From the NCBI RefSeq assembly GCF_017908595.1, contig NZ_JAGKTL010000004.1:310001-374000 (forward strand): DNA of 64,000 nt. The letters are read 5' to 3'. Shown piece by piece: positions 46,422 to 62,252 of the stretch. Source of the DNA: Rhodothermus bifroesti (lineage in GTDB: Bacteria > Bacteroidota > Rhodothermia > Rhodothermales > Rhodothermaceae). Every line of letters starts with the position of its first letter. The stretch's first letter is position 1. A program made the translations under genes and the position numbers. Below the pieces are notes generated by a model, which was not told where the DNA came from, searched no databases, and saw nothing but the letters and a program-made list of their open reading frames with translations.

Positions 46422-47231
46422 TTATGCGGCAGACGTTAACTCATGCTGCACTTGACGAAGAAGCGCTATAAGCTGGCTGGCATCACGAAAACCGCGCTTA
46501 GGTCGCGGCGTGCCCTGCACCTCCAAGCTCAGTGGACCTGCATAGCCCAAGCGATGCAATTGGCGTAGCTGCGCTAGCCAGCCAACGGCACCTTCGCCAA
46601 AGGGTGCGGGTTCCCACCCCGCTCGTTCGGGATTCCACCGCCAATCGGTGCAGCGAACCAGCGCTACGTAGGGGCCTAAGGCAGCCAATCCCACCTGTGG
46701 GTCTTCGCCGACTTGCAATGCTGCACCGGGATTCCAAGCTGCTTTCACCGAGGGATGGGCTACAGCTGCAAGTAACGCGGCAAGGGCTTCGCCGCGCGGG
46801 AAAGCCCCTTCTACTTCGTTAAGTACAGCCAGCGTAATGCCGTACCGCGCAGCTTTATCGCCCGCCCGCCGTAGCGCTTCGACAGCGGCTTCCTTAGCAT
46901 CATTAGGCTCAGCGGCAAAAGCCGAAACCACCACGCGGGGACACTGGATCCGGCGACAGAAAGCCAGCACTTCGTCAAATGCAGCAATCTCGTTCAGCCA
47001 AGCGCGCCGGTCGTGCACCGACCCTTCAAACATGCCTGGCACAATGGCCACTACAGGCAGTTCATGCTCCGCCAAACGTCGACGCAGTTTCTCCTCGTTT
47101 ACAAAAGGCACCCGATCCGAAGGACCTCCCACCGTACGCAATTCCACAGCCTCTAAGCCCCAAAGCAGGGTGAAATACAATGCCCGGTCCAGGTCGGTCG
47201 TCACCGTATCGGTCAGCAATGCTGTAGTCAT
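46422..47231 (-). CDS. Sugar phosphate isomerase/epimerase-like TIM-barrel protein
   Basis: 269 residues from the ATG at 47231, whose ATGA overlaps the upstream stop. The AP-endonuclease-2-type barrel is recognised from VTTDLDRALYFTLLWGLEAV, ARYGITLAVLNEVEG and YAGPLSLEVQGTPRPKRGFR. The usual metal ligands (Glu on strand 5, Asp-His pairs) are only partly visible: VLNEVEG supplies a Glu, whereas AAWNPGAALQVGED has Asn where an Asp is common. Substrate is unknown. It sits between the M28-like lipoprotein and plsC genes. Confidence 0.8.
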   Translation of the reverse strand: MTTALLTDTVTTDLDRALYFTLLWGLEAVELRTVGGPSDRVPFVNEEKLRRRLAEHELPVVAIVPGMFEGSVHDRRAWLNEIAAFDEVLAFCRRIQCPRVVVSAFAAEPNDAKEAAVEALRRAGDKAARYGITLAVLNEVEGAFPRGEALAALLAAVAHPSVKAAWNPGAALQVGEDPQVGLAALGPYVALVRCTDWRWNPERAGWEPAPFGEGAVGWLAQLRQLHRLGYAGPLSLEVQGTPRPKRGFRDASQLIALLRQVQHELTSAA

Positions 47232-48619
47232 GGTCTTTGCTTCAGCAAGGGTGAGGAATCGGGCACTACCGGTTGCCAAGCTGTTGGCGTTATCACCTCG
47301 GGCAGCAACAAACTCTGCGCAGCATGTACCAGTGCCTGGGCGCGCTTTACCGCTCCACCCAAGCGCTGCGAGGGCGCTGGTGGAGAAACGAGCGCCAAGC
47401 CTCCATAGATCCGTACATAAGTCTGTTGCCATGCCCTTGGAACCTGAAACCACACGTTTCGCTCTGCTTGAAGCGCATCGGGGAGCCTAACCGGCTGCAG
47501 CGTCAGTCCATAGCGCGCGGCTAAGTGCTGTAATGTGGGGATATCTTCTGGCCGCGGATCCAGGTAAAGCATTGTGCGCGTAGCACGCAGGTCCCACAAC
47601 GGCCGCTCCAAATAAGCCTTTAGGCCCTGATGTCCTTGGCGCGCGCCAGACCATACGGCAAATAGCAAACTGCGTTGTGGAAGAGGCCAGTAGCTCGCAA
47701 GCGCACGGTAGAAACGGCTCAGCTCCAGCAATGCAGCTACACCTTCGCCCATGTGGCGGCCATCAACGACCAGCCGGCTGCCAGGCAAGCCGATGCCGTC
47801 CAGCTCGGCAGCAACAATCACCAGCTCGTGACGCAGCACGGGATCTTTCCCGGCAATAAAGCCCAGCACGTTCAGCGCCTCAACCGTTTCGCGCCTGCCT
47901 TGCACGTGCACATGCACCGGATGCCGCAGGGCCAACCGCTGCGGTTGTTCACCGGCCAGCGCAGCCTCCAGGCTATCGGCCTTCCAACCCAGCAAGCGTG
48001 CGGCTGCTACTGGCGTAAGCTGCACCACCAAAAGCCCCTGTAAGGGCCGCTCGGCCAGTGAAGGCTCAAGCAAGCCCACCCGAAACACAACCCGGTAGCC
48101 TTGCGCACGCCAACGCGCCAGTTGTGCGGGGGTACCTTGTGCAAAAGGAGCCATCAAGGCCTCGGCAACGGGGCAGGCTTTTGCACTTGGGCATAGCGTA
48201 AGTGTTGTAATGGTCACCCGCCCAGTATCACTTTGGCCATCCGGCCAGAATTCCAAGCCTAGAAAGAAAGTGGTCGTGTCTTCAGCTGCCCCCTGCTTGA
48301 GTATAGCTCCCAAAGGCAGGTAGACGTTGGCCGTATAACCCAGTTGATATTGGTTCCCTAAAGCTGGCCCAATACCCAACGATCGCAACCGGTCGGCCAC
48401 GTATGCTGCCGCTCGTGCTAGCTCCAGCGATCCCGTTAGGCGCGGCAGCACTTCCGATGCATTCAGCACCTGGATATGCTCGGCAAGCAGTGCTGAATCG
48501 CCTGCTACTGCGCGCCATGCAGGCTCCGACACCGAAAGCGACCCCGCCGGCGTGCAGGCCGCAATCGCGAGCAGTCCCCCGAAAGCGCCCCAGAAACCGA
48601 TAAGCCGAACTGTACGCAT
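47228..48619 (-). CDS. M28-like lipoprotein, probable non-catalytic homologue
   Basis: 463 residues from the ATG at 48619. Lipobox IAAC gives lipidation at Cys22. The fold of M28 aminopeptidases is suggested by ELARAAAYVADRLRSLGIGP, VIVAAELDGIGLPGSRLV, GEGVAALLELSRFYRAL and RSLLFAVWSGARQGHQGLKA. Where active enzymes have AHYDH, GANDNASG and GEExGLxGS, this protein has AAELDGIG, GRHMGEGVA and SGARQGHQG, so the His, Asp and Glu-Glu metal ligands are missing. A binding or scaffold role is more likely than proteolysis (inference). It is the first gene of the long minus-strand run that goes through epimerase, plsC and gatC. Confidence 0.78.
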   Translation of the reverse strand: MRTVRLIGFWGAFGGLLAIAACTPAGSLSVSEPAWRAVAGDSALLAEHIQVLNASEVLPRLTGSLELARAAAYVADRLRSLGIGPALGNQYQLGYTANVYLPLGAILKQGAAEDTTTFFLGLEFWPDGQSDTGRVTITTLTLCPSAKACPVAEALMAPFAQGTPAQLARWRAQGYRVVFRVGLLEPSLAERPLQGLLVVQLTPVAAARLLGWKADSLEAALAGEQPQRLALRHPVHVHVQGRRETVEALNVLGFIAGKDPVLRHELVIVAAELDGIGLPGSRLVVDGRHMGEGVAALLELSRFYRALASYWPLPQRSLLFAVWSGARQGHQGLKAYLERPLWDLRATRTMLYLDPRPEDIPTLQHLAARYGLTLQPVRLPDALQAERNVWFQVPRAWQQTYVRIYGGLALVSPPAPSQRLGGAVKRAQALVHAAQSLLLPEVITPTAWQPVVPDSSPLLKQRP

Positions 48620-48652
48620 GGTGCAGATCCTTAGGGGATGTTGCGCAAAATA

Positions 48653-48688
48653 AAAAACCCGCAAGACCCGGGGGCCTTGCGGGTTTTT
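48653..48688 (-). terminator. Intrinsic terminator after the pilus secretin gene
   Basis: A 13 bp stem (AAAAACCCGCAAG with CTTGCGGGTTTTT) around a 10 nt GC-rich loop, followed on the minus strand by a further T and ATTTT. It separates the pilus operon from the M28-like gene. The structure is symmetrical enough to work on both strands. Confidence 0.9.
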
Positions 48689-48705: not shown

Positions 48706-50055
48706 TTAACGTCGTGGTAGTGGAGTTTGGCGAGCCGTTTGCTCGCTAAAGCGTTCCAGTCGCTCGCGCAGCTGCTCACGGCTGCGTTCGAGGAGATCCT
48801 GTTCGAAGGGACGCCGTGCCCGCGCTTCCAGGGGGTCACGCACGTTCACCTGCAGCACAATCAAAAGCTCGGTCTGCGTGACGGTTCGCTGCGTACGACC
48901 AAAAATGTAACGCAGCCCAAAGAACCATCCGGGTAGATCTTTCAAAAATGGAATCCCTTTGCGGGATACGGATTCCCGCGTCGAATAAAGGCCGCCGATA
49001 ATCGTTTGCTCACCGTCGAGGAGCAACACGCGCGTATCGGCGGTGTTGCGGTCGACAATAGGTCCAGCACCCGTTGGGGTAGCACTGGAATTTTCCACCA
49101 TCACATCTAGGTGCACAAACTCCAAAAGCGGGGCCCCGGCCGTATCGGCCGTTGGGGCTACAATCAATGTGGGAGTAACGTCGATAATGATGCCGGTCGA
49201 GACAAACTGCGTGATTGTGTTGCCTGCAAAGTCGCGCGTTTGAATGGGCACGTCCGAGCCAATCTGGATACGCCCGCGCTCGCCACTTTGCACGGTTATT
49301 TGAGGGTTGGCAATGGTCTCGCCAATGCCTTCGGTTTCCAAAAAGCGCAAGAAGTTGGTTAAATCGCGGAAATTGATGCGATCGGGAGCCTCAATAAGGG
49401 GCTGGAGCGGGTCGAAGAGTTTCTCCGTCTTAAGGAAGAACTGCACGTTGCCTTGCGCAGTACTGCCCGTACCACTTCCGGTTCCGCCACTTCCAGTTCC
49501 GGTGCCGGTAGTTTGTCCAAAAAATTGATCCCAGTTAATCCCGATGTCGCGCGCCTTGCTCAGGTTGAGGTTAAACAGAATCGCGTTAATTTGGATCTCT
49601 CGCGTCTGGGGTGTAGCTGGCTGCACGACTGTAGAGGCTCTGCCTTCGGTAGGTTGCTGCTGCGTGCTCACCACAAGGTTAGGGCCTGGTGGTGCAGGCT
49701 CGACAATAAAGAATTTCTCTGTCTCGCGGTAGATCAAGCCTTTGGTCTGGAGCACCAGCTCGAAGGCATCAAAAAAGTGCATGCCCGAAATCGAGATGCC
49801 AATCGGATCACTCCGGTCTTGGGGATCTACGATCTGTTTTCCGGTCACGCGTTGAAATATAGGGTTGAGCAGCTCAAAGAATTGCTTGAGCGGCGTTGTC
49901 GGCAAAAATGACACCAGCTGGTCTGGCGGCACATAAGTGCGCATGACCCGCTGGGGAGGCTGAACCTGCGCCGATACTGGCCAGGCTACAAGGCTGCCGA
50001 TCAGCAGCCATCCTACCAGTAGCGCCATCCAAGTAGCTATACGCACGCGCTCCAT
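48706..50055 (-). CDS. pilQ: Compact type IV pilus secretin (PilQ-like)
   Basis: 449 residues. Signal peptide 1-29 (cleaved after WPVSA), then one N-type domain with DPIGISISGMHFFDAFELVL, a Gly/Thr/Ser-rich linker (about 180-200: GTGTGSGGTGSGTGS) and the secretin pore domain. The pore domain ends with ADTRVLLLDGEQTIIGGLYS, GIPFLKDLPGWFFGLRYIFG and LLIVLQVNVRDP, the usual gate and lip motifs. PilQ proteins often have AMIN and several N domains and exceed 600 residues; this one has none of the AMIN part. It should form the outer-membrane channel for the pilus. Last gene of the pilT-PilMN-PilOP-pilQ unit; a strong terminator follows. Confidence 0.93.
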   Translation of the reverse strand: MERVRIATWMALLVGWLLIGSLVAWPVSAQVQPPQRVMRTYVPPDQLVSFLPTTPLKQFFELLNPIFQRVTGKQIVDPQDRSDPIGISISGMHFFDAFELVLQTKGLIYRETEKFFIVEPAPPGPNLVVSTQQQPTEGRASTVVQPATPQTREIQINAILFNLNLSKARDIGINWDQFFGQTTGTGTGSGGTGSGTGSTAQGNVQFFLKTEKLFDPLQPLIEAPDRINFRDLTNFLRFLETEGIGETIANPQITVQSGERGRIQIGSDVPIQTRDFAGNTITQFVSTGIIIDVTPTLIVAPTADTAGAPLLEFVHLDVMVENSSATPTGAGPIVDRNTADTRVLLLDGEQTIIGGLYSTRESVSRKGIPFLKDLPGWFFGLRYIFGRTQRTVTQTELLIVLQVNVRDPLEARARRPFEQDLLERSREQLRERLERFSEQTARQTPLPRR

Positions 50056-50069
50056 AGCTCTACAAGGTT

Positions 50070-51029
50070 TTACTCTTCATGGAAAGGCTTAAGCAACACC
50101 GGTCCTAAAGCCTGGCGATAACGCTCTCCTGTTTCCAGGTGCAACTCCACTTCATCCAGAATGCCGCCTCGGTTTAGACGTGCGACCACACGTCCTTCGA
50201 TGGGATCGATGGCAGTGATCTGCCCTAAGTAGACGTTCTCGCCAACGCCCACACTGCGCAGCCCAGTTTCGTCTTGGAAAACAGCCCTCCCGCCAACAAT
50301 CGAAACCAACCGCGCCTTTTCGATATCAATCAGGTTGTCCGAGTTAGGAGGCAGTTGTTCCAAAATACCGGGATAGAACGGGTTGACAGGGGGATTTCTC
50401 TCTGGAAAAACAGCGCGCGGCAACTGACGATACAGACTGTCGGCCATGTGCGCAACCTGTAAATCTGGCGGACCGCCATAGTAAGCCTCAAGCTGCATCG
50501 TGAAGGAGACCATCACCATCATCCGCTGGCGCCCGCTTTGCCGGTCGGCTTTGACCAGGTCGATATGGTCGAGCGAGAGCGTTTGGATCCGGTAAAGCTC
50601 AGGGGTATTTTCAATCTCCCAAACAAAGCGATACAGGTGGTGAAAGTAACCTCGGCCTTCGATGCTAAAGGTGTAATAGGTAACCTTGGGCTCTTGGGTC
50701 AAACCGACCAGACGGACGTTGAAGGTTTCAAAACCTTGACGGGTGAGTGCATTTAAACGGGCAACCACATCCGGAGTCTCTAGCTTGGCTGGAATGTAGC
50801 GATAGCGCGAACGCCAGCGGCTTTCAACCTCCCGGGCCCGTTGCTCGGTGGCCGCATACTCGGCCAAAAGCGAGCCAATTTCGCTTTCACGCATGTGGGC
50901 CAGTTTTTCCAGCCGCTCTACGTGCTCAATCTCGCGAGGCAGCTTGACAAAGGTTAGATAACTTCCTATACCGGCAATCAGGAGCCAAGCCACAACGAGC
51001 AAAAGGGCGTTGTTGTACTTTTTCCACAT
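50070..51029 (-). CDS. PilO-PilP fusion, pilus alignment complex
   Basis: 319 residues. A membrane helix (8-27) is followed by a coiled coil (about 33-72) and a PilO-like ferredoxin domain (about 85-190, with NVRLVGLTQEPKVTYYTFSI). After a proline-rich linker (200-230) comes a PilP/GspC-like beta domain (about 238-305: ARLVSIVGGRAVFQDETGLR and GVGENVYLGQITAIDPIEGR). In model systems PilO and PilP are separate proteins, PilP being a lipoprotein that contacts the secretin. Here both parts appear to be one chain. The gene lies 14 bp from pilQ and 6 bp from the PilM-PilN gene. Confidence 0.82.
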   Translation of the reverse strand: MWKKYNNALLLVVAWLLIAGIGSYLTFVKLPREIEHVERLEKLAHMRESEIGSLLAEYAATEQRAREVESRWRSRYRYIPAKLETPDVVARLNALTRQGFETFNVRLVGLTQEPKVTYYTFSIEGRGYFHHLYRFVWEIENTPELYRIQTLSLDHIDLVKADRQSGRQRMMVMVSFTMQLEAYYGGPPDLQVAHMADSLYRQLPRAVFPERNPPVNPFYPGILEQLPPNSDNLIDIEKARLVSIVGGRAVFQDETGLRSVGVGENVYLGQITAIDPIEGRVVARLNRGGILDEVELHLETGERYRQALGPVLLKPFHEE

Positions 51030-51035
51030 GATCTG

Positions 51036-52745
51036 TCACGGATTTGTCGTTGACTGGGCAGCTGCAGTAGCAACGCGCTCCCGCAAGTAGCGGGCTGGCT
51101 CAGGCAGTTCGTTAGGCAACGGAATTTCAATGACAAAAGCATACACAGGCCATTCCCGTATCTCAGCAAACGTCAGCTCTCGGATGGTGCCCTCCAGACG
51201 CTGGGCTAGTTCAACAACACGCTCGCGAGCTAAAGCGCTGCCTACCAGCTGAACACCTGTGGATTGGGGTTTCCAGCTATCGACCCAGATACCCCCTACG
51301 GCAGCCACTTCGCGCGAAAGCTGTGCCAGCGAGCGGCTCCAACGATCACTTCCCACCAGCAGCGAGTCGAGCACTTCCAGCGCTTGCAAAGCCTGCAGCG
51401 TGCGGGCATTGAGGCTGTCGATACGGCGCTCAAGCGCCTTGGCATCGGTCTCGGCAATTGCAGGCGGCAAGCGCCGCAGCACATCCTGACGGGCTTTTAG
51501 GGCTGCGTTTAGCTCTAGATAGCGCCAAACGAAAAACAACGTGGTTACAAACAGTAGTCCATAAAGGGCCCAGACGTGCCAGCCAAAAGGCAACGTCCAA
51601 CGCCGTCGCAAGCTAGGTGGGAAAAGATTGACCGTTTCGAAAGTCTCCAGAAACGACCGGTCGGCCTGCAACCGCAGTGCCGCCAGTAAGGCAGCCAGGA
51701 ATCCTGCACCATGCACCTCTGCCTCAACGGGCACATAGCGGCGCAGCGAAACAACGCGGGCTTTAGGGAAAAACACCTCAAAACCACGCTGCAAATCCGA
51801 CTCGCTCTGTTCACTCAGCAAAAAAATGGCTTCAACTTCGCCAATGCCGTACTCGTCCTGCAGCAGCAAAACACGGCTGCAGATGGTTTCGGGGGTGTCG
51901 TGCACGCTCAGCGAACGCAGACTCTCCACATGGTGAAGCGTCTCATCCTGCAAAAATAGCATGAGCGTGTCTTCGTGCCCCACCCGCAGTACCAGCGAAC
52001 GCTGGGGTCGTTCTGCAGCCGAGAAGCTTCTCAGTGCCCGACGAGCTAGCCCTAAGTAAAGCGACACCTCGGTCTCAAAAAGCCGCGTGCGCGGTAGCTT
52101 TCGGTTCGATTCGGCTTTAAGCGCCTTAAGCGTGGCCGTTATCGGTTCGGTAGGACGGGGTAAAACGGCTAAAAAACGATGCGTTTCGTTGTCCGAAGGC
52201 GTCAGCGCTAAAAAAGCAACCTGGTTGGGGTCAAAAACGAGATTTTGCTGCTCAAGCAGCTCCAACAAGGCTTTACGGTCGAGCTCTCCGGTGTCTTGAT
52301 CTTTGAAGCGGGCACGCCGTGGGAGGCGTAGCTCGACGTAGGCCAACTCTGCAGAAGGCAAACAAAAGGCAACCTCTGGATCACCATAGCCTGCCTCGCG
52401 GCACTCGCTCAGCACGTCGCTGACTTCGGTTACAAACAGCGCAGCCGCGGGCGTCTGAGTACTTGCTCCGTCCCCACTGACATCGAATTCCGACTTCAGA
52501 AATAGGCTGGTTGTCTGCCCGCCACCAAATTGAATCGAAAAGTCGCTGGCCGACTCCTGGCCCTTGACTTCGGGCACCCCTTGCTGCACTGTAGCAAAAC
52601 GGGCTATGCGTTGCCGGGTAAACTGACGCACAATGCGTACCCCTTCGCCCGTATGCTGCAACAAAACACCGTAGAGGGTGCGACCAGCTACGCTCAGGCC
52701 CAAAACGTATGGGGCTTTGGTGTGGATCGCCTTGGCAGACTTCAT
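51036..52745 (-). CDS. PilM-PilN fusion, pilus alignment complex
   Basis: 569 residues. Residues 1-365 look like a divergent PilM actin fold (APYVLGLSVAGRTLYGVLLQ, LVLRVGHEDTLMLFLQDETL). The first phosphate loop, normally with an Asp-Gly pattern, reads GLSVAGRT, so ATP binding is doubtful. The motif ETVNLFPPSLRRR (370-382) matches the NLLP peptide by which PilN binds PilM. A membrane helix (about 386-406) and a PilN periplasmic domain (430-545, ending LTFAEIREWPVYAFVIEI) follow. PilN normally contributes a separate chain; fusion fixes the stoichiometry at 1:1. The gene is 6 bp from the PilO-PilP gene. Confidence 0.82.
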   Translation of the reverse strand: MKSAKAIHTKAPYVLGLSVAGRTLYGVLLQHTGEGVRIVRQFTRQRIARFATVQQGVPEVKGQESASDFSIQFGGGQTTSLFLKSEFDVSGDGASTQTPAAALFVTEVSDVLSECREAGYGDPEVAFCLPSAELAYVELRLPRRARFKDQDTGELDRKALLELLEQQNLVFDPNQVAFLALTPSDNETHRFLAVLPRPTEPITATLKALKAESNRKLPRTRLFETEVSLYLGLARRALRSFSAAERPQRSLVLRVGHEDTLMLFLQDETLHHVESLRSLSVHDTPETICSRVLLLQDEYGIGEVEAIFLLSEQSESDLQRGFEVFFPKARVVSLRRYVPVEAEVHGAGFLAALLAALRLQADRSFLETFETVNLFPPSLRRRWTLPFGWHVWALYGLLFVTTLFFVWRYLELNAALKARQDVLRRLPPAIAETDAKALERRIDSLNARTLQALQALEVLDSLLVGSDRWSRSLAQLSREVAAVGGIWVDSWKPQSTGVQLVGSALARERVVELAQRLEGTIRELTFAEIREWPVYAFVIEIPLPNELPEPARYLRERVATAAAQSTTNP

Positions 52746-52797
52746 AGCGTTACAGAACTACCTTTTTTCGTATCATTCAGGAACGCAGCACGAGCAA

Positions 52798-54099
52798 CTA
52801 CCCAAGCAGCTGTTGCAAGCGTCGCTTATTATTCGCAAAATCAAAGGCAACTTCGGGCGTAATTAGCTGCTGGGTGACCAGGCGGTACAAATCCTGTTCC
52901 AGGGTGGTCATCCCTAGGGCCCCTCCCTCCCACATCATCTGGTAGATTTCGCTCGTGTTTTTGTTTTTAATAGCCGCACGGGCTGAGGGGGTCATCCACA
53001 ACACCTCTTTAGCCAAGATGCGCCCACCCCCCACCTTGGGCACAAGCTTTTGGGAAATCACGCAGCGGAGTACATCAGCCAACCGGTTGCGCACGCGATC
53101 CTGTTCTTCAGGCGGGTATTCAGCCACAATGCGATCGATGGTCTCTACGGCCGAACTGGTGTGCAGCGTAGAGAAAACCTTGTGACCTGAGTCCGTGATT
53201 TCTAGCGCCGCCGAAATCGTTTCGGGATCACGCATCTCCCCAATCACGATAATGTCGGGGTCCTGGCGAAGGGCCTGCACAATGCCATCCTTAAAGGTGC
53301 GCACGTCGCGCCCCACCTCGCGGTGACGGATCAAGCATTTGCTTGACCGATGCACATACTCGATGGGCCGTGCGATGATCACCACGTGCGCGTGCACATC
53401 GTTGTTGTTGGCATCGATGATCGCATCCAACGTAGTGCTTTTACCCGACCCCGTGACCCCGGTAACCAGCGTCAACCCATCCCGCACGTGACGAAACATT
53501 AATCCCCGCTCAATAAGGGGATGAAAGCCCAGGCTCTTGAGGGAGCGAATTTCGTCACTGATGGCGCGCATGTTCAGCGCCACATGGTCCATATCAAAGT
53601 AGACCGTGGCACGAAAGCGCCTGGGCATGCCGTTGCGCCCTTCAATGGGCAGCTCGTAGGAAAAGTCTAGCGAGCATTCTTCAAAAAAGAGCTGCAGCTG
53701 CCGCTCGGTAAGCAGGTTCAGGATAAGCAAGCTGGCCTCATCGCATGTATAGGTGCCCATTTCTTCGTAGGGCCGCTTATCGCCATGCACACGGTACCAC
53801 ACATAGCCGTTCGAGGCCGGGCCCCCCATATCTAGGTCGCTGGCATTAAGGTCCAGCATGCGCTTAACCAGCAGCTGCATGTGCTCTCGCAACGCCGTGC
53901 GGTCTTTATCTAACAGGGCATTGACCTGTTCGGCCAGATAGCGCGCACGGTCTTCACCGACCAAAGAGGGCGGTACCGAATCCAGTACGGTCTTGCAAAT
54001 CTTGGGCAACGGGGGCACAGGCCGCAGGCGCGGCCGCTGCTGCGCAGCACTGGCATGCTGCGCCAACACTTCAGCCAGAGCAGGATTGACGCTCGACAT
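52798..54099 (-). CDS. pilT: PilT-like pilus retraction ATPase with altered Asp box
   Basis: 433 residues, longer than usual PilT (about 350). The extra is an N-terminal 75 residues with a Pro-rich part. Walker A is GVTGSGKST (214-222), Walker B with LRQDPDIIVIGEMRDPETIS (278-296) and the His box FSTLHTSSA (309-317) are normal. The Asp box, usually IEDPIE, reads IIARPIEYVH (241-250): the first acidic pair is replaced by Ala-Arg while the second Glu remains. It could be a retraction motor, a PilU-like accessory or a weakly active form. A 54 bp gap separates it from the PilM-PilN gene; a terminator and 62 bp of possible promoter precede it. Confidence 0.9.
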   Translation of the reverse strand: MSSVNPALAEVLAQHASAAQQRPRLRPVPPLPKICKTVLDSVPPSLVGEDRARYLAEQVNALLDKDRTALREHMQLLVKRMLDLNASDLDMGGPASNGYVWYRVHGDKRPYEEMGTYTCDEASLLILNLLTERQLQLFFEECSLDFSYELPIEGRNGMPRRFRATVYFDMDHVALNMRAISDEIRSLKSLGFHPLIERGLMFRHVRDGLTLVTGVTGSGKSTTLDAIIDANNNDVHAHVVIIARPIEYVHRSSKCLIRHREVGRDVRTFKDGIVQALRQDPDIIVIGEMRDPETISAALEITDSGHKVFSTLHTSSAVETIDRIVAEYPPEEQDRVRNRLADVLRCVISQKLVPKVGGGRILAKEVLWMTPSARAAIKNKNTSEIYQMMWEGGALGMTTLEQDLYRLVTQQLITPEVAFDFANNKRRLQQLLG

Positions 54100-54161
54100 G
54101 TCGCATCGCAGGTTTGGCTTTCTTAGTATCGTGCACCTTAGGACAGGCTTAAGTCAGGTCC

Positions 54162-54209
54162 AAAAAAAGCGGCGTTGCTTCGGAAAATCTGCTTCCGCCG
54201 CAACGCCGC
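54162..54209 (-). terminator. Intrinsic terminator between pilin-like gene and pilT
   Basis: GCGGCGTTGC and GCAACGCCGC form a perfect 10 bp stem around a 28 nt loop that itself contains a small hairpin, followed on the minus strand by seven T residues. It splits the pilus locus into an upstream unit (pilin to the 388-residue pilin-like protein) and a downstream unit (pilT to pilQ). Confidence 0.85.
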
Positions 54210-54233
54210 CTGGAGGACTGCAATGATATTCGG

Positions 54234-55400
54234 CTAGACCGCCGGCTCTGGGATGAGCTCTACCTCAATCACCTGGTCGTCAAAATCGGGTACAATCTTC
54301 CCCTCAACCATGTAATAGTCGCGCGTCTCATAATAGCCCCACTGATCCACTCGAGACCAGCCCGAACCGCCATAGCTGTATTTTCCATTACGCTCACCCC
54401 AGCTTGCACCGCTACGAATCTGCCATTTCATATCTCCATAGCTATAGCGCTTGACATCGGCGAGCTTATCCATCCCCATAAACTCAGTATCAAAGTTGAG
54501 GTCTTCAAAAGCCAAGCGCCAGGTGTTGGGCTTTGTGGGGTGGGCTTGAATCATGACATAAGGCCCCTCCTGCATTTGCGCAAAATCATCTGTGCTTTTA
54601 ATCAGCGCATCCCGCAAATAGTCAAAGTATTTCTTGCCTACCCTTGCCAGCACATCCGTGCGTCCCCGTAGACTACAGTCTTTGTCGACCGCCAAAATGA
54701 AGTTGGCCCGCTCACCTGGATTTAAGACCACCGTACTGGTTGCACTGGCATTGTCCCGATTATGCCCCGGGGGAAAGATCAGTTCAGGCTCAAGGGCTAC
54801 GTACCGGTCGTTACCCCGCAGCTCGATATCTTCTTGGGTTTCGCACGAACTGCCGTGCGCCGGATTGCTGGGATCACACCTACCTGGATTATTGCCCATG
54901 CCGTTGTTGTTGCGCGGTACGTAGCGCTGCAAGTAAATGGCCGAACAATAGCCGGCGACTGATTCCAAAAACGTTACCTTGACCCGGCTGGGCTGATTCG
55001 GGGGCACTTCCAAGATACGCTGCAGCACCCGATGGGTCCCCATTTGATGGGAAGCCTCTCCGTAACGCCCAATGGCAACCGCTCCGTAGGAGGACGCACC
55101 GATTGGATAAACCCAGGCTTCATAGGAGCCTCCCTTGAGATGTCCCGCAAGCTTCCCGCTGGAGCCATTGACAGCATTGACCAGCTGCGTCAGCGTCCAG
55201 GTCGGATTGGCTGCCTCAAGCTGACGCGCACGAGAAATAATCAGGTTGTAAGCCGAGCGCGCAATCTCCCGCGCTAAGGCCTCTTCCTGACGGGCCACCT
55301 GCCGCTCATCGGCTTGCAAGCGATTAGAACTCCCTTGCAGGAGTAAAACGCTGGTGCCTATAGCAGCGGCCGCTACGAGAAGCAAAATCGCCTTGCCCAT
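54234..55400 (-). CDS. Large pilin-like protein, minimal leader
   Basis: 388 residues. The N-terminus MGKAILLLVAAAAIGTSVLL is a hydrophobic helix with no real leader and starts MG like the major pilin at 62 kb. A polar helix (30-75) and a long beta-rich region follow, with cysteines at CSAIYL, GRCDPSN, SSCETQED and DKDCSLRG that may form disulfides. The C-terminus is Tyr/Trp-rich (SYGGSGWSRVDQWGYYETRD). No family is recognised. Place and layout suggest a minor pilin or tip adhesin. A terminator lies directly behind it. Tad-type proteins are unlikely because all ATPases here are PilB/PilT-like. Confidence 0.7.
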   Translation of the reverse strand: MGKAILLLVAAAAIGTSVLLLQGSSNRLQADERQVARQEEALAREIARSAYNLIISRARQLEAANPTWTLTQLVNAVNGSSGKLAGHLKGGSYEAWVYPIGASSYGAVAIGRYGEASHQMGTHRVLQRILEVPPNQPSRVKVTFLESVAGYCSAIYLQRYVPRNNNGMGNNPGRCDPSNPAHGSSCETQEDIELRGNDRYVALEPELIFPPGHNRDNASATSTVVLNPGERANFILAVDKDCSLRGRTDVLARVGKKYFDYLRDALIKSTDDFAQMQEGPYVMIQAHPTKPNTWRLAFEDLNFDTEFMGMDKLADVKRYSYGDMKWQIRSGASWGERNGKYSYGGSGWSRVDQWGYYETRDYYMVEGKIVPDFDDQVIEVELIPEPAV

Positions 55401-55527
55401 AGGACCTCCTTACAGCGATTGGCTGATTTGTTTAGCATAGCTTCGAAAACCGTGCCTACCACCAAAACAGCATTTTGCACAACTTTTTATCCCACAGATG
55501 GTTACGTTATGTAACTGCAGGGTTCAT

Positions 55528-56178
55528 CTATGAACCGCCACTTCTGCCTGCATACCGATCAATGAGCAATGTCGAACCGTAATAGACCTGACGGAGCACC
55601 TGGGCGCGCGCCACTTCAAAAGGCGCTGCCATAGTAAACCGCACCCGCGTATTTTGCACCAACGCAGCGTTATTTTTCGGATCTGCAATCGGCCGCGCAT
55701 CGCGATCGAGCAAGTCGATCTTGAAATAGCTCAACAGCCCTGGGCTTTCACCACTGGCTTGCCACGGTCCTGTAGGACAACTGCTGCCGATGCATTCTTC
55801 GCGCTGCAGCCGGTAAACAGAAACGCTGTCGTTCCGGATCACCCGATGTCCTGCAGCCTGCAAGCGATAGCGCACGTAAACGCGCAGGGCGTTTCCGGCG
55901 GCATCGGTCGAATCGTGGAAAAACACAAACCGGACAGTCACCCCCGCCGAGTCAACGGGATTCTCAAATGGGGTTTCGCTGGACCAATCCACACCCCGCC
56001 CCAGCCGCAGCAGATCATCTTCAAGCCATGTGGCCAAATCGCCAGCCTGGCGTTTGACCATGTAGTTCACCGTCTGCTCCAGGTTGATCTCGGCTAGGCG
56101 CTGCTGCACCGTGAGCATCATCAAAAACAGCATGCCGCCCACAATGAGCGCGTTCAGATTGTCGAAAATGAACCACAT
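55528..56178 (-). CDS. Pilin-like protein of the pilus locus (second)
   Basis: 216 residues. The N-terminus MWFIFDNLNALIVGGMLFLM is a membrane helix, followed by a polar amphipathic helix (QQRLAEINLEQTVNYMVKRQ) and a beta-rich domain with one close cysteine pair (EECIGSSCPTG). This helix-plus-beta layout is that of pseudopilins, but the usual G-x-x-x-x-E leader site is missing. Starts 12 bp after the third pilin-like gene stops. I do not recognise a named family. Confidence 0.65.
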   Translation of the reverse strand: MWFIFDNLNALIVGGMLFLMMLTVQQRLAEINLEQTVNYMVKRQAGDLATWLEDDLLRLGRGVDWSSETPFENPVDSAGVTVRFVFFHDSTDAAGNALRVYVRYRLQAAGHRVIRNDSVSVYRLQREECIGSSCPTGPWQASGESPGLLSYFKIDLLDRDARPIADPKNNAALVQNTRVRFTMAAPFEVARAQVLRQVYYGSTLLIDRYAGRSGGS

Positions 56179-56190
56179 AGGCCTTTAGCG

Positions 56191-56742
56191 CTAAAATCCA
56201 TAGGCAAAAACACGCTCCAGATAGATGGGAACGTGAATAAACGGCGTCATCGCACCACCCCAGTCGTCTTGCACCTCGACACGCACCTCCTTATAAGCCG
56301 TCTTTCCCGTAGCTGCCGTAATCGCCTGTGTGGTGGGGTCGTAGTTGACATAACGCACACTTAGGCGCACCTGAAACCAGACCGTATCCCGTCCCATCAC
56401 AAAAGGCCTCCGGGCAACTTGCCCATGAAAGTCATCCAAATCATCACACGTAGCTGTCCCTCCAAACGGTTGGCAGAGGGCATTGCCTTGCGTGCCAAAC
56501 GCCGCCGGATCGGTAAACAGCAAAATGTCCGCACTGGTACCGGTTACTAGTCCATCAACGACGGCTTGGTCAAAAGCGCGCACCCGGACAATCTCGATCG
56601 TCTCCACAGCAACCGACTGGGCCATCTCTTGCACTTCGCGAAAAATGGTAGCTCGCTGCAACGAAGCGTACCAGCTATTTACCGATAGGGCCATGTTTAC
56701 GGCCACCACCAGCGCCAGCAAGGCAAAAAACGACTGCGCCAT
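56191..56742 (-). CDS. Pilin-like protein of the pilus locus (third)
   Basis: 183 residues. N-terminal hydrophobic helix MAQSFFALLALVVAVNMALS directly at the start, then an amphipathic helix (SLQRATIFREVQEMAQSVAV) and a beta domain with a cysteine pair (ALCQPFGGTATCDD). Layout is pseudopilin-like; no canonical prepilin leader and no Glu at +5. It follows pilB by 67 bp and precedes the second pilin-like gene by 12 bp, so all three minor components form one block. Confidence 0.65.
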   Translation of the reverse strand: MAQSFFALLALVVAVNMALSVNSWYASLQRATIFREVQEMAQSVAVETIEIVRVRAFDQAVVDGLVTGTSADILLFTDPAAFGTQGNALCQPFGGTATCDDLDDFHGQVARRPFVMGRDTVWFQVRLSVRYVNYDPTTQAITAATGKTAYKEVRVEVQDDWGGAMTPFIHVPIYLERVFAYGF

Positions 56743-56809
56743 AACTTACCCCGCTTTGGTCTAGCAGCCTGCAGATTTATTGCTCTAAACAGCAAGCTCT
56801 TCGTACGCC

Positions 56810-59800
56810 TTATTCTTCCGTGGTTGTAACGCGTACCATTTCCTCCACAGTGGTCTCGCCTAAGAGCACCACTTCACGGGCAGCATCGCGTAACGTCTGC
56901 ATGCCTTCCTTGATGGCCTGCTCGCGCAGCGCGTCTTCGTCGATCGCTCCTTGAGCCTCGACAATCATGTGGCGAATCGTCCGCGAGAAATACATGGCCT
57001 CTACAATCGCCCGCCGACCTTTGTAGCCTACGCCTTTGCATACCTTACAATGACGGTTACGGCCTGCCTTGTAGAACGTAGTGCGCGCAATCTCTTCGTC
57101 GGTAAAGCCCAGCTTTCGGAGCATTACGTAATCGGGGTCTTTGTCTTCCACCTTGCAGGCTGGGCACACTTTTCGGATCAGGCGCTGGGCTACCACCAGA
57201 TTGATCGCATAGGCAATCAAAAACGGCTCAATCCCCATCTTGTAAAGCCGGCTCACCGCACTGGGCGCATCGTTGGTGTGCAACGTCGAAAACGTCAAAT
57301 GCCCTGTGTTGGCCAGCTTGATGGCCAGCTCCGCCGTCTGCCGGTCGCGCATCTCACCCACCATCACAATGTCTGGGTCGTGCCGCAATATTGCCCGCAG
57401 GGCATCCTCAAGCCCCAGCTTGTGGTTGAGCTTGATCTGCCGCACCCCAGGAATGATGTACTCCACCGGATCTTCGATCGTCAGCACGTTCACCTCAGGA
57501 CTGACGACCTGGTGGAGGGCGGCGTAGAGCGTGGTGCTCTTGCCGCTACCGGTGGGCCCCGTGACGATCACCATACCATGCGGCTGGCGAATAGCCCGCT
57601 CAAAACGCTCTAAGGCTTTTTTGTTTAGCCCAAGCAGGCGCAGGTCTTTGATGACCTTGCGGTCGTCAAGCACGCGAATGACAATCGACTCGGAGCGCAG
57701 ATCTTCAAGCGCATTGGCGATGGGCAGTACCGAGACGCGGAAGCGAATCAGGTGGTCATCGATCCAGCGTTGGATAAAGCCATCCTGGGCTGCATCGCGC
57801 TCAAAACGGTCGACGTTCACCGACTGGTCTTTAATGACCGCAATCAGCGCCTCAGGATGCACTTTGTCTTCGACATGCCAACGCGACAGCCGGCCGTCGA
57901 TGCGAAAGTGAATCTCAACTTTTTTCTGATTATTGGGGAAGATGTGGATGTCGGAGGCGCCTTGGCGGACAGCTTCCACCAGCGTGGCCTCGAAGAGGTT
58001 GATCAGCTTGGAGCGGTTGATCTCGGCCTCGAGGGCCTCTTCGTCGATCAGCTCGGTTTCGGTGTCGTAGCTGGTGCCTAGGTCAAAGGCAGCTTCTTCG
58101 CGCACGCGCTCCAGGTATTCATTGCGTCGCGGATAGGCCTCAAGCAGGGCAGCGGTGATCAGGCCACGTGGCGCATACTGCAACTCAAAACGCTCCAGCT
58201 TAAGCCGCTGCACCAACCGGTGTACCTCAGGCCGCATTGGGTCGTGGGTCACCAGCACGAGCTTGACTGCCCCGGTCTGCGCATCCAGATCGACCTCAAA
58301 AGGAATCACACGTAGGTCAATAAGCCGCTCGCGCACTTCCTCCTCAAAGGTATCCATGACAGAGCGGACAAACTCGGGGCTGGGCTTGCCGGGCTCCAGC
58401 CGCGCAATCGGAAAGGCATACAGCCGGGCTGCTTCTTCATAGATCGCTTCCTGGGGCGCCTGTTCGTGCTGCGCTAGCACGCGCCAAAGGGGCTCTTTGA
58501 GCTGTTCTTCCTGCTGACGCTGGTAAGCTTGGTAGACCACGTGCAGCGGTACCGCACCCTTTTCGACCAATCGGCTTACGACGCGGTCGCGAACAATCGC
58601 TTCTTTCAGCTCCGGCAGGTCGTCGAGCACGATCTGCACCGGCGGCGGTACAGCTTCGTCGATGCTGTCGGTCTCGTCGGCTTCTTCATCGCCTTCGAAT
58701 GCGCCTGGCGTAGTCTCGATAGCCTCTAGCGCCACAATGGTCTCCGGATCCAGCGCCGGAGCTTCGGCATGCGGCTCTGGATGCGCCTCGCTTGGTGCAC
58801 GCAGAGGCTTTTGCTCCCAGTCTTCCGGAAGTGCCTTATCAGGCCCACGGCCTTCGGCTGAGCTAGGCGTTTCGGGTTCCGCCGCAGCCGAGCTAGCAGG
58901 CGCATCGGCATCCTGCGCTAAAGGCGGCAGCCAGTCTAGGTCTTCGGGCTCGTCGGCTACGGGTTCCGGAGTTTCAGGTTCGGTCTCGTCTATCTCCCAA
59001 GCCAGTTGCCGCAACGAGGGGGGCGGCTCGGGGGCCTTAGGCTCCGCAGGCAAAGGCGTTTCGCTACGCTTTTCTGTTCCCGCTGGCTTCGATAGCCCAG
59101 CGGATTCAGGCGGTCGCAGTCTTAGCTCTCCTAGGCGTTTTTGAATAATGCGCTCCGGCGCGTAACGCAATGCGGCCGGCATGCCCAGCAAGTGCAACAC
59201 CGCGGCCAGCTCGGACCGCGTAGGGTCAAAGGTGGCTAGTAGCAGCGTCCGCTGGCCTGAGGCAGGGTTTGCTGTAAAACCGCAAGGCAACAACCCATGT
59301 GCAAAGAGCTGCTGCTGTACAGAGGCGGGGAAAAGCAGCAGAATGGCTCGGATAAATTCAACCGAAGGACGCGTCTCATCGATCGGTGCAGGCTCAATCC
59401 CGGCCACGCGAGCAGCTTCGGCAAAAATAGCCTCGCGGTCTACCCCATTTTGGTTCAGCAGTACGCGCCAAAGCGGCTGATCGGGCTGCTGCCGCCGCTC
59501 GGCAATCGCCTGTGCAATCTGGTCGAGCCGCAGCGCACCATGGTAGAGAAGGCTTAGTACAACATCGTCTTCAAACATCTCAGCTAACTCCGGTGCAAAA
59601 GACCCTTCAGGCAAGTTGTTGCGCGGTGCGCTTGGAGGCTCACTGCCTCCACGCGCAGGCGATAGGCCTTCTCCACCCGATGAGGAGCTACCTTGACCGT
59701 TCGTGAAGGACTTTGCGTCGCCAGCTGCGTCCAAGGCGCTGGCCTGCGGCATGCCTTCTGCCTGTTGCGTTGCCGAAGTCAGCTTAGCCTCTGCCGTCTC

Positions 59801-60076
59801 CAGCAGCGAAGCCTCAGCCTCCTCCGCTGAAGCTTGGACCGGCAGTGCCTCGTCGGCAGCTTCGCTCGCCAAAGCTGGCAGATCAGCTTCTGCCCCATCA
59901 CCTGCAGCCAACGGCCAGCCGCTCGGCACGTGCTGCGCAAACGCTTCTTGCCCCTTCAAATCTGAATCACTATTGGCAGCCTTAGCGGATTTCTCGGCTT
60001 CCAATTTCAGCCGCCGCAGCTCTTCGTTCCATTCCCGAAGCAAGCGACGACGCCCGAAGAGATCACTCCAGCTCAT
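56810..60076 (-). CDS. pilB: PilB-like extension ATPase with two N-terminal MshEN-like repeats
   Basis: 1088 residues, against about 570 in Escherichia or Pseudomonas relatives. Order: charged N-terminus (1-160, Ala/Glu rich); repeat 1 (about 170-320); acidic, Pro-rich linker (320-490); repeat 2 (495-650); hexameric ATPase (690-1088). Both repeats contain PLWRVL, an EAI-[YF]-x-EAAR helix and a PSxEF motif, so they are copies of one domain, of the MshEN type that binds cyclic di-GMP in other pilus ATPases. ATPase motifs are intact: Walker A GPTGSGKST (840-848), Asp box IEDPVEY, Walker B DPDIVMVGEMRD, His box STLHTND. A zinc site uses Cys971, 974, 1010 and 1013. Thermus PilF has a comparable multi-repeat N-terminus. 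Confidence 0.95.
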   Translation of the reverse strand: MSWSDLFGRRRLLREWNEELRRLKLEAEKSAKAANSDSDLKGQEAFAQHVPSGWPLAAGDGAEADLPALASEAADEALPVQASAEEAEASLLETAEAKLTSATQQAEGMPQASALDAAGDAKSFTNGQGSSSSGGEGLSPARGGSEPPSAPRNNLPEGSFAPELAEMFEDDVVLSLLYHGALRLDQIAQAIAERRQQPDQPLWRVLLNQNGVDREAIFAEAARVAGIEPAPIDETRPSVEFIRAILLLFPASVQQQLFAHGLLPCGFTANPASGQRTLLLATFDPTRSELAAVLHLLGMPAALRYAPERIIQKRLGELRLRPPESAGLSKPAGTEKRSETPLPAEPKAPEPPPSLRQLAWEIDETEPETPEPVADEPEDLDWLPPLAQDADAPASSAAAEPETPSSAEGRGPDKALPEDWEQKPLRAPSEAHPEPHAEAPALDPETIVALEAIETTPGAFEGDEEADETDSIDEAVPPPVQIVLDDLPELKEAIVRDRVVSRLVEKGAVPLHVVYQAYQRQQEEQLKEPLWRVLAQHEQAPQEAIYEEAARLYAFPIARLEPGKPSPEFVRSVMDTFEEEVRERLIDLRVIPFEVDLDAQTGAVKLVLVTHDPMRPEVHRLVQRLKLERFELQYAPRGLITAALLEAYPRRNEYLERVREEAAFDLGTSYDTETELIDEEALEAEINRSKLINLFEATLVEAVRQGASDIHIFPNNQKKVEIHFRIDGRLSRWHVEDKVHPEALIAVIKDQSVNVDRFERDAAQDGFIQRWIDDHLIRFRVSVLPIANALEDLRSESIVIRVLDDRKVIKDLRLLGLNKKALERFERAIRQPHGMVIVTGPTGSGKSTTLYAALHQVVSPEVNVLTIEDPVEYIIPGVRQIKLNHKLGLEDALRAILRHDPDIVMVGEMRDRQTAELAIKLANTGHLTFSTLHTNDAPSAVSRLYKMGIEPFLIAYAINLVVAQRLIRKVCPACKVEDKDPDYVMLRKLGFTDEEIARTTFYKAGRNRHCKVCKGVGYKGRRAIVEAMYFSRTIRHMIVEAQGAIDEDALREQAIKEGMQTLRDAAREVVLLGETTVEEMVRVTTTEE

Positions 60077-60223
60077 ACGCTTGATCTTTTACCGGGCTAT
60101 GAGGAGCAGGCCAAGGCCTGCCCATGGGGAAGGCACCACCCGATGGCTGTTGAAGAAGCGCCCACGCAACACGGGGCTTATCAGGGAAACCCTCGGGAGG
60201 TTCAAGGAACACGTGGTGGGGAC

Positions 60224-61585
60224 TTATTGGCCCATGCGCATCAAGTCGGTCGACGAAGGCTGAATCAAGGCCACCTCCGACGAAATCACCGTCAGTAACG
60301 CAATAGCGATCGTGATCAGGATAGCAATGATCGTCTGAATGCCTTCGACAACCGCCTTTAGCTTGAGCGAAGTTTCGCTTTCGTAGTAGTTTGCCATCTG
60401 CTCGGCTGCCCCGCGCACATTCCCCGTTTCCGAGCCGCTGCGGAAGCGCGCTAAGGCCATCTGCGTAAAGACGCCACTAGCTTCCATGGCCCGCACTAGG
60501 TCCATACCCTGCGCTACCATCAGCGGCACCGTGATCGTTTTGATCCGGTGCTCCATGTAGCGATTACCGCACGCCTCGGCAGCAATTTTAATCACACTGA
60601 TGTTTTCGCCACTGTTGGAATACAGGATGGCAAACACCCGACAAAAGATTTCGATGTTCAGCTTGTGCAACAGGCTGCCGATAATCGGCAGCTTAATCAG
60701 CCAGCGATGCACCACCAGCTGGCCTTTTTCGGAGCGTGCAAAGGCCACAAAGCCGCCCATGGCCGCGCACGAGAGCAACAGCAGCCAGAGGATGTTGCGG
60801 TCGAGCCATTGCGAGAAAGCCAGCGTTGCGGCGGTCATAGGGGGCAGCTCCATGCCCAGGTCGGCCAAAAGGCCGGCTGTCATTGGGAAGATGTACCACA
60901 CGTACCAAATGAACGTCGCCACCAGCGCAATGACTGTAATCGCTGGCGTGATCATGGCACTGCGGACGCTTTTGCGAAATTCGTTTTGGCGCTCCAGAAA
61001 GCGGGCTGTCGACTCAAAGATTTCGGCCATGTTGCCGCTTTTGGAGGCTAGGCCTAGCATATAGGCCGTGAACTTACCCAGCACGTGCTGGTGCTTCATA
61101 AAGGCCTGCTGCGCCTCCAGTCCTGCTTTCAGGTCGGCATTGAGGTCCCGAATCACCTGGCGCAGCGAATTCGAAGAAACATCGTTGACCAGCAGGTTCA
61201 GGACCTCGTCGAAGGGCAGCTTCTCCCGAAGCAAATTTGCCGCCAGGCGCACAAACATGATGATGTCGGTGCGCGGCGGCTTCATTTGGAAATCCAGCAC
61301 CTTGCGCTCGACGCGTATCACCTCGAGGCCCATTTTGCGCAAGGCCTGGGTGAGCTCCTCGGCCGTGTAGGCCTTCTGCTCGCCTGTAATAATGCGGCCG
61401 CTGGGATGGCGTACTTTGTAGAGAAACGTCCGGCGCGGCTGCAACAGCTGAGGACGGAAGCCGTGCTTTTCGGCAAGCTCGGCCAGCTTCTTTCGGGCTG
61501 CCCGCACCGAAGGCGCCAGCACCGTGCCTTGCACCGGCACCCCACTGACGCTCACGCCGCTAAAGCGAAACTCACGGACAGGCAT
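60224..61585 (-). CDS. pilC: Pilus inner-membrane platform protein PilC
   Basis: 453 residues. An N-terminal ~80-residue extension (FSGVSVSGVPVQGTVLAP) precedes the two GspF repeats. Repeat one has FVRLAANLLREKLPFDEVLN and GKFTAYMLGLASKSGNMAEI; repeat two has FCRVFAILYSNSGENISVIK and SGSETGNVRGAAEQMANYYE. Three membrane helices follow the usual pattern, the last being IIAILITIAIALLTVISSEV. It transmits motion of PilB and PilT to the pilin pool. 91 bp after the pilin stop, with a terminator between that would let only part of transcription continue. Confidence 0.95.
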   Translation of the reverse strand: MPVREFRFSGVSVSGVPVQGTVLAPSVRAARKKLAELAEKHGFRPQLLQPRRTFLYKVRHPSGRIITGEQKAYTAEELTQALRKMGLEVIRVERKVLDFQMKPPRTDIIMFVRLAANLLREKLPFDEVLNLLVNDVSSNSLRQVIRDLNADLKAGLEAQQAFMKHQHVLGKFTAYMLGLASKSGNMAEIFESTARFLERQNEFRKSVRSAMITPAITVIALVATFIWYVWYIFPMTAGLLADLGMELPPMTAATLAFSQWLDRNILWLLLLSCAAMGGFVAFARSEKGQLVVHRWLIKLPIIGSLLHKLNIEIFCRVFAILYSNSGENISVIKIAAEACGNRYMEHRIKTITVPLMVAQGMDLVRAMEASGVFTQMALARFRSGSETGNVRGAAEQMANYYESETSLKLKAVVEGIQTIIAILITIAIALLTVISSEVALIQPSSTDLMRMGQ

Positions 61586-61634
61586 GCCACCCTCAAGGGC
61601 TTTTGATAGCGGCTAAAAGCAAGCAGCAGAAAAG

Positions 61635-61665
61635 CCGGCGGCGCCCCACCAAAGGACGCCGCCGG
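61635..61665 (-). terminator. Intrinsic terminator between pilin and pilC
   Basis: CCGGCGGCG pairs with CGCCGCCGG (9 bp, all GC) around a 13 nt loop, followed on the minus strand by CTTTT. It is 11 bp past the pilin stop. Partial termination here would make pilin mRNA far more abundant than that for the machine genes, as expected for a major pilin. Confidence 0.85.
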
Positions 61666-61676
61666 GAGATTTTCGT

Positions 61677-62087
61677 TTAGTATTGCCATTGAATGTCGCG
61701 TACTGTAGTACCACTAATGGTTACAGTAGCGATTTGATTACTACAGTTACCAGTAGTATCCGCATAAATTTTCAACGTAGCATTCGTCCCAGCTGTAAGT
61801 TCATAGCAACCATTAACTGTTTTGTACTTACCACCGGCAGTAGTATCGCTGATGCCGATGGCGCTAAAGCTAACCCCGTTAAACCCTTGCGCATTTGCGC
61901 CACCGCCAAACGCACTAGGCTTCAGCTTCCATGCCTGAATGTCAGAAATGAGCCGCATCGCATCGCTGACAGCAGCGTCTCGATCGGCCTTAGCCTTCCC
62001 CTCCGAGAAGGCTTGGATGCCGGCCACCACGGCGATCCCAACGATCACCATACCGAGCACTAGGAGCAGAAGTTGTTGCTGACCCAT
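61677..62087 (-). CDS. Candidate major pilin, MG-QQQ type
   Basis: 136 residues. The N-terminus MGQQQLLLLVLGMVIVGIAV is a continuous hydrophobic helix that begins at residue 5, followed by a charged helix (EGKAKADRDAAVSDAMRLIS) and a small beta domain with one cysteine pair (GCYELT and GNCSNQ). This is the type IV pilin layout, but the leader would be only Met-Gly and there is no Glu at +5. The gene is richer in A and T than its neighbours in its 3' half. An excellent GGAGG ribosome-binding site (62094-62098), a terminator behind it and a sigma-54-like promoter support high, regulated expression. I recall similar MGQQQ proteins as unnamed hypotheticals in related phyla. Confidence 0.8.
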   Translation of the reverse strand: MGQQQLLLLVLGMVIVGIAVVAGIQAFSEGKAKADRDAAVSDAMRLISDIQAWKLKPSAFGGGANAQGFNGVSFSAIGISDTTAGGKYKTVNGCYELTAGTNATLKIYADTTGNCSNQIATVTISGTTVRDIQWQY

Positions 62088-62236
62088 AACGTGCCTCCGT
62101 TAGTTTGATGATGAACGGTTTGGTTTTTTCATAGGGCGAGCTTCCGGGGAAGTATCGGCCCTGCCAGAGCAATCTTTAAGCACTTACTTATTCGGCTTGG
62201 CTAGGGCTTTTTCCCCAAAGGCTGGGTTTCTAGCGG

Positions 62237-62252
62237 TGCACACGTCGTGCCA
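62237..62252 (-). promoter_or_regulatory. Sigma-54-type (-24/-12) promoter of the pilin gene
   Basis: On the minus strand the site reads TGGCACGACGTGTGCA. Compared with the consensus TGGCACG-R-NNN-TTGCW only one specified base differs (G for T). The invariant GG and GC are 10 bp apart, as required. Transcription would begin near 62226, about 138 nt before the pilin start codon. Pilin genes of several Proteobacteria use sigma-54 and an NtrC-type activator. Confidence 0.65.

Follow-up and report, generated by a model that had tools for sequence, protein, structure and literature searches.

Can a type IV filament be assembled from pilins that are made without a leader, in a cell without a prepilin peptidase? 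Nearly all bacterial pilins have the leader, Gly-1 and Glu5, and mutants in Glu5 fail to build homopolymeric pili (PMC4471445); the prepilin peptidase is a key component of type IV filaments (PMC6668835). Leader cleavage is regarded as a defining step of these filaments, and homopolymer assembly as dependent on Glu5. The question was raised by a locus of Rhodothermus bifroesti, located in a window of 64,000 nucleotides (contig NZ_JAGKTL010000004.1, positions 310,001 to 374,000). Judged from its sequence, this locus very probably holds the genes for an entire type IV filament machine, with four pilins that have no class III leader and no need of a prepilin peptidase, and the filament is probably a retractable pilus.

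The initial annotation had identified ten genes on one strand as a type IV pilus-like locus, which holds: all ten ORFs are there, on the minus strand and arranged as claimed (Table 1), and the identities of PilC, PilB, PilT and the secretin were borne out by matches to curated profiles. The terminator expected behind the secretin gene is present and an additional strong one was found inside the locus, between the genes for the pilin and PilC. Gene order, of which the conservation had been proposed as a check, is kept across the Rhodothermales and also, though with genes lost or split in places, throughout the phylum. Because of this conservation across order and phylum, a locus due to chance is excluded. 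Downstream of the secretin gene, a lipoprotein resembling M28-type peptidases (47228-48664) and a sugar isomerase-like protein (46422-47453) are encoded; similar neighbours follow the secretin gene in Rhodothermus and in some other Rhodothermales loci.

Table 1. Features of the type IV filament locus; positions are those of the window.
Feature	Position	Strand	Remarks
Locus of 10 ORFs	48706-62087	(-)	Transcription order: pilin, PilC, PilB, three minor pilins, PilT, PilM-PilN, PilO-like, secretin
Major pilin, 136 aa, leaderless, N-terminus MGQQQLLLLVLGMVIVGIAVV	61677..62087	(-)	
Terminator-like hairpin, pilin/pilC gap	61635..61665	(-)	13 pairs, 11 G-C, T-rich tail
PilC / GspF-type platform protein	60224..61585	(-)	PF00482 4e-29
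PilB assembly ATPase, 1088 aa, N-terminal region duplicated	56810..60076	(-)	T2SSE 6e-103
Minor pilin, I-like position, leaderless, MAQSFFALLALVV	56191..56742	(-)	Most relatives read have a homologue
Minor pilin, J-like position, leaderless, MWFIFDNLNALIVGG	55528..56178	(-)	Homologues in relatives
Large minor pilin, K-like (position and size), leaderless, MGKAILLLVAAAA	54234..55400	(-)	
PilT-family retraction ATPase	52798..54099	(-)	TIGR01420 323.4 bits, cut-off 319.1
PilM-PilN fusion, GspL-like architecture	51036..52745	(-)	PilN profile 6e-7 and model matches
PilO-like protein, perhaps PilP-fused	50070..51029	(-)	PilO 0.027 (Pfam), 0.08 (PDB)
PilQ-like secretin	48706..50055	(-)	PF00263 6e-28
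Terminator-like hairpin 3' of secretin gene	48653..48688	(-)	16 pairs, T-rich tail

All four pilins of the locus begin directly with a hydrophobic helix. Upstream of the major pilin gene, an in-frame TAA (62102-62100) lies 15 bases before the ATG (62087-62085), and the interval, CGG AGG CAC GTT, carries the SD sequence GGAGG (62098-62094). For the minor pilins, the room between the upstream in-frame stop and the ATG is one codon (I-like), two codons (J-like) and three codons (K-like). With one to four codons between stop and ATG, no leader can be encoded for any of the four, and the upstream sequence read is devoid of a class III leader (6-26 residues ending in Gly, as defined in PMC4471445). 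The description as ‘minimal-leader pilins’ was thus an understatement, since the upstream stops leave no leader at all. The major pilin also has neither Gly-1 nor Glu5. In the K-like minor pilin, M1 and G2 are invariant in 13 homologues; a search by sequence for PDB relatives of this protein found none.

The AF2 model of the major pilin (pLDDT 85.7) has a helix of 53 residues (3-55) followed by a small sheet, a predicted arrangement that is the layout of type IV pilins. No significant match to this model was returned by Foldseek. With weak E-values of 0.01-0.3, a profile of the pilin aligned in the same register with each of the Geobacter pilin, PilE1, Thermus PilA5 and GspG, and this register, coming from weak alignments, places Leu8 at the position of Glu5. 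Homology to the solved pilins is weakly suggested by these scores.

The ATPase, platform protein and secretin are homologous to PilB, PilC and PilQ by profile matches. The only T2SSF matches in the whole genome are the two halves of the PilC of the locus; with a single platform protein, the locus is therefore the only machine of its kind in the genome. For PilB, a duplicated c-di-GMP-type domain had been announced. The duplication is real, with copies 35% identical (2e-22), but the c-di-GMP reading found no profile support: the c-di-GMP-binding MshEN profile matched neither N-terminal copy of the locus protein; one relative (L072) gave a weak MshEN match of 0.019, below the cut-off. The duplication occurs in Rhodothermus and in genome G012 (PilB of about 1090-1160 aa) and is missing from most relatives, which have a PilB of about 590-770 aa.

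The fusion of PilM and PilN was confirmed: a 15-row alignment matched the PilN of Myxococcus (6e-7), and the AF2 model (pLDDT 73.9) was linked by Foldseek to PilM (9e-14) and to the Thermus PilM-PilN complex (1e-12). It is less strange than the initial annotation had it, as the GspL protein of type II secretion has a PilM-plus-PilN architecture too. Of the proposed PilO-PilP fusion, the PilO part is weakly backed by the scores in Table 1 and the PilP part comes from position and general look only, leaving the assignment as a whole a weak one. The PilM-N and PilO-P alignments found no confident match among HofM, HofN, HofO and HofP of E. coli, a weak test with single distant sequences; HofN scored 0.0008, with only 18 residues aligned.

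These likenesses raise the possibility that the locus encodes a secretion system with a type II-like pseudopilus and not a pilus, which we consider unlikely. The GspL-like fusion, the I-J-K order of the minor pilins and the scores of PilB and PilC, about equal with GspE/GspF and with PilB/PilC models, all agree with a type II system. On the other hand, PilT is encoded in the locus of every relative whose full locus was read, the secretin family profile is closer to the PilQ of P. aeruginosa (2e-27) than to GspD (3e-17), a PDZ-type GspC was not seen, and GspO is missing. The initial annotation had named a close match of the pilins to general secretion pseudopilins, with a type II secretion gene set, as evidence against a pilus; no pseudopilin profile, of GspG type or other, was matched, and in Pfam the pilins of the locus type gave no convincing match to any pilin family. 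With the type IVa pili of Pseudomonas, Myxococcus and Thermus the locus shares PilB, PilC, PilT, PilM, PilN, a PilO-like protein, a secretin closest to PilQ, minor pilins and, as predicted by the model, a helix and sheet resembling those of a pilin. It differs from them in the fused PilM-PilN, in pilins without leader, Gly-1 and Glu5, and in the lack of PilD in most genomes with leaderless pilins. The novelty of the leaderless pilins would stand under either reading.

As first noted, the locus has no gene for a prepilin peptidase, and this lack was found to extend to the whole genome, which is 98.7% complete. The suggested search for pilD elsewhere detected none: PF01478 had no match in the genome, while the same search matched 12 of 14 control genomes, and a 17-row A24 alignment that included weak, divergent enzymes of the phylum gave nothing at E≤10 (search A2, run without a separate positive control).

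In the order, PF01478 was matched in seven of 60 genomes. Real A24 genes in genomes with PilM-N number five (G011, G014, G017, G025 and G040), and these are exactly the PilM-N genomes of the order that have an extra high-scoring platform protein. The A24 gene tracks the extra platform protein, and the peptidase therefore goes with a second, conventional system. Genome G044 has a PF01478 match without PilM-N, and G022 a lone T2SSF fragment, also without PilM-N. The match in G046, a transporter-like ORF of 599 residues, was judged false. Most of the A24 genes read adjoin a different ATPase or platform gene. Pilins with a leader (e.g. KGFTLIELMV) were recognised in six A24 loci (L224, L225, L233, L236, L238 and L239); a simple motif search for them found none in the A24 loci L228-L231 and L240.

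A divergent or unrelated prepilin peptidase encoded elsewhere could act on the pilins, for instance with a cut behind Gly2 or Gln3. A24 enzymes that barely reach detection (22-33 bits) do occur in the phylum and a very divergent enzyme could escape the searches, yet the profile that includes such near-limit enzymes matches nothing in the R. bifroesti genome, and the presence of A24 genes follows that of the second, conventional platform protein, not that of the leaderless locus. We regard this explanation as improbable.

Two known systems bear on the missing peptidase. The MSHA locus is likewise without a prepilin peptidase gene, but MSHA genomes have a peptidase from another system (PMC6668835), whereas most carriers of the pilin studied here have none and the pilin is leaderless. 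The type II secretion-like system of Cytophaga hutchinsonii (CHU_3191-3202), also of the Bacteroidota, has PilM/N/O/P-like genes beside an ATPase, a platform protein and a secretin, and differs in carrying a Peptidase_A24 gene (PMC5553014). In the tree described below, the PilBs adjacent to A24 genes, a set without those of this Cytophaga system, do not group with the leaderless clade.

The pilin start was then read in 185 distinct pilins, chosen by an ATG and the motif, with the absence of upstream starts not being a selection criterion. The start MGQQQLLL is near-invariant: Gly2 is present in 184 of the 185 and Gln at positions 4 and 5 in all, position 8 is hydrophobic in all, and the consensus helix is without Glu. 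The median room from the upstream stop to the ATG is four codons; within it, 178 of 185 have no in-frame ATG, GTG or TTG, and 145 have a core ribosome-binding motif ahead of the ATG. It would take non-standard upstream starts, and removal by an unrecognised peptidase, for these pilins to have leaders after all. Such an origin is available to 59 of the 185, which have ATG/GTG/TTG or CTG/ATT/ATC/ATA somewhere upstream in frame; 126 have no such codon, and Gly-1 and Glu5, which a peptidase would read, are missing. Together with the ribosome-binding motifs and the short upstream room, this makes encoded leaders highly improbable.

A terminator-like hairpin follows the pilin gene in 83 of 180 cases, compared to 3.3 in letter shuffles, which would fit a subunit produced in larger amounts than the machinery. 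In family f16 (L067:6168-8248, L066:12572-14705), a second trio of leaderless minor pilin-like genes was seen between the first trio and PilT.

PilM-N was found in 41 of 60 genomes of the order. Homologues at two places in G012, G014, G021, G035 and G055 hint at two leaderless systems per cell. In a sample of the phylum (296 genomes, each with a completeness of 90% or more), 102 genomes were matched by the pilin profile, 99 by PilM-N and 41 by PF01478; among the 102 pilin carriers, PF01478 was present in 12 and none was shown in 90. A DNA pattern for MGQQQLLL matched at least 119 stretches in GTDB genomes. Among the matches listed, real hits came from Ignavibacteriota, Kryptonia, Rhodothermia, Balneolota, Calditrichota and KSB1, and also from one Neomarinimicrobiota and one Zixibacteria genome; matches in Shewanella, Paenibacillus, Lachnospiraceae and others were short chance ORFs. 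PF01478 was absent in 40 of the 50 named carriers among the matches listed, and three carriers free of it are single-chromosome records (CP053447, CP070637 and CP070707), the others being records of unstated completeness. The pilin was present in nine of 33 Calditrichota genomes.

In the initial annotation, pilD was something still to be searched for and the shortness of the pilin start a mere detail. Both facts stood, but not this weighting: taken together, the absent leader and the absent peptidase are the main finding, because the two are lacking jointly, over the whole genome and in several phyla.

In a tree with a small, long-branched outside sample, all PilBs of the family fall into a single clade (100/100), separate from the PilBs adjoining A24 genes and from kin in E. 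coli, Aliarcobacter, Burkholderia and Acinetobacter. Groups within the clade broadly follow taxa, which fits an old vertical descent of the family. The machines likely represent an old lineage around Bacteroidota, Ignavibacteriota and Calditrichota that does no prepilin processing and makes its pilins in final form, with invariant N-terminal glutamines in place of the Glu5 contact.

In the proposed mechanism, the pilin N-terminus (M-G-Q-Q-Q and about 20 hydrophobic residues) would enter the inner membrane directly and stay cytoplasmic at its end, where methionine aminopeptidase probably takes off Met1 ahead of the invariant Gly2. PilB and PilC would draw the pilins out into a helical filament that exits via the secretin, with PilM-N and PilO-P linking the ATPase to the secretin. 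The three minor pilins may prime the filament tip, PilT would retract the filament, and the invariant N-terminal glutamines probably assume the contact of Glu5 with the amine of the neighbouring subunit. Likely uses of such a filament are adhesion, twitching or DNA uptake, the last being possible since comEC is encoded in the genome.

No earlier description of leaderless or peptidase-independent pilins was found in the open-licence literature, preprints being outside the scope. For Melioribacter roseus, pilT, pilQ, pilB and pilC were reported from the genome and pilA and pilD were not (PMC3534657), as its pilus would be of the leaderless, peptidase-independent kind. A decayed or non-functional locus, bereft of pilA and pilD, was the conclusion of the authors of that genome; it would agree with the missing processing step but is scarcely credible given the near-invariant pilin start, the intact reading frames and a gene order conserved across phyla. 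The leaderless machine is very probably a genuine and conserved type IV filament variant, in which the step held to be definitive of the superfamily is missing. If so, leader cleavage and Glu5 are dispensable for the machine, and their roles become testable by comparison. It would also account for the ‘incomplete’ pili in genome papers on this group of bacteria. Tools that search for leader motifs will overlook these pilins.

Pilins with MGQQQLLL were also seen on two IMG/VR contigs (L088 and L095), probably bacterial DNA classed as viral. In a record named as an Acinetobacter phage (L302, CAKLQH020000004.1), an epsE-like ATPase is surrounded by ordinary chromosomal genes, and the record looks like a bacterial contig.
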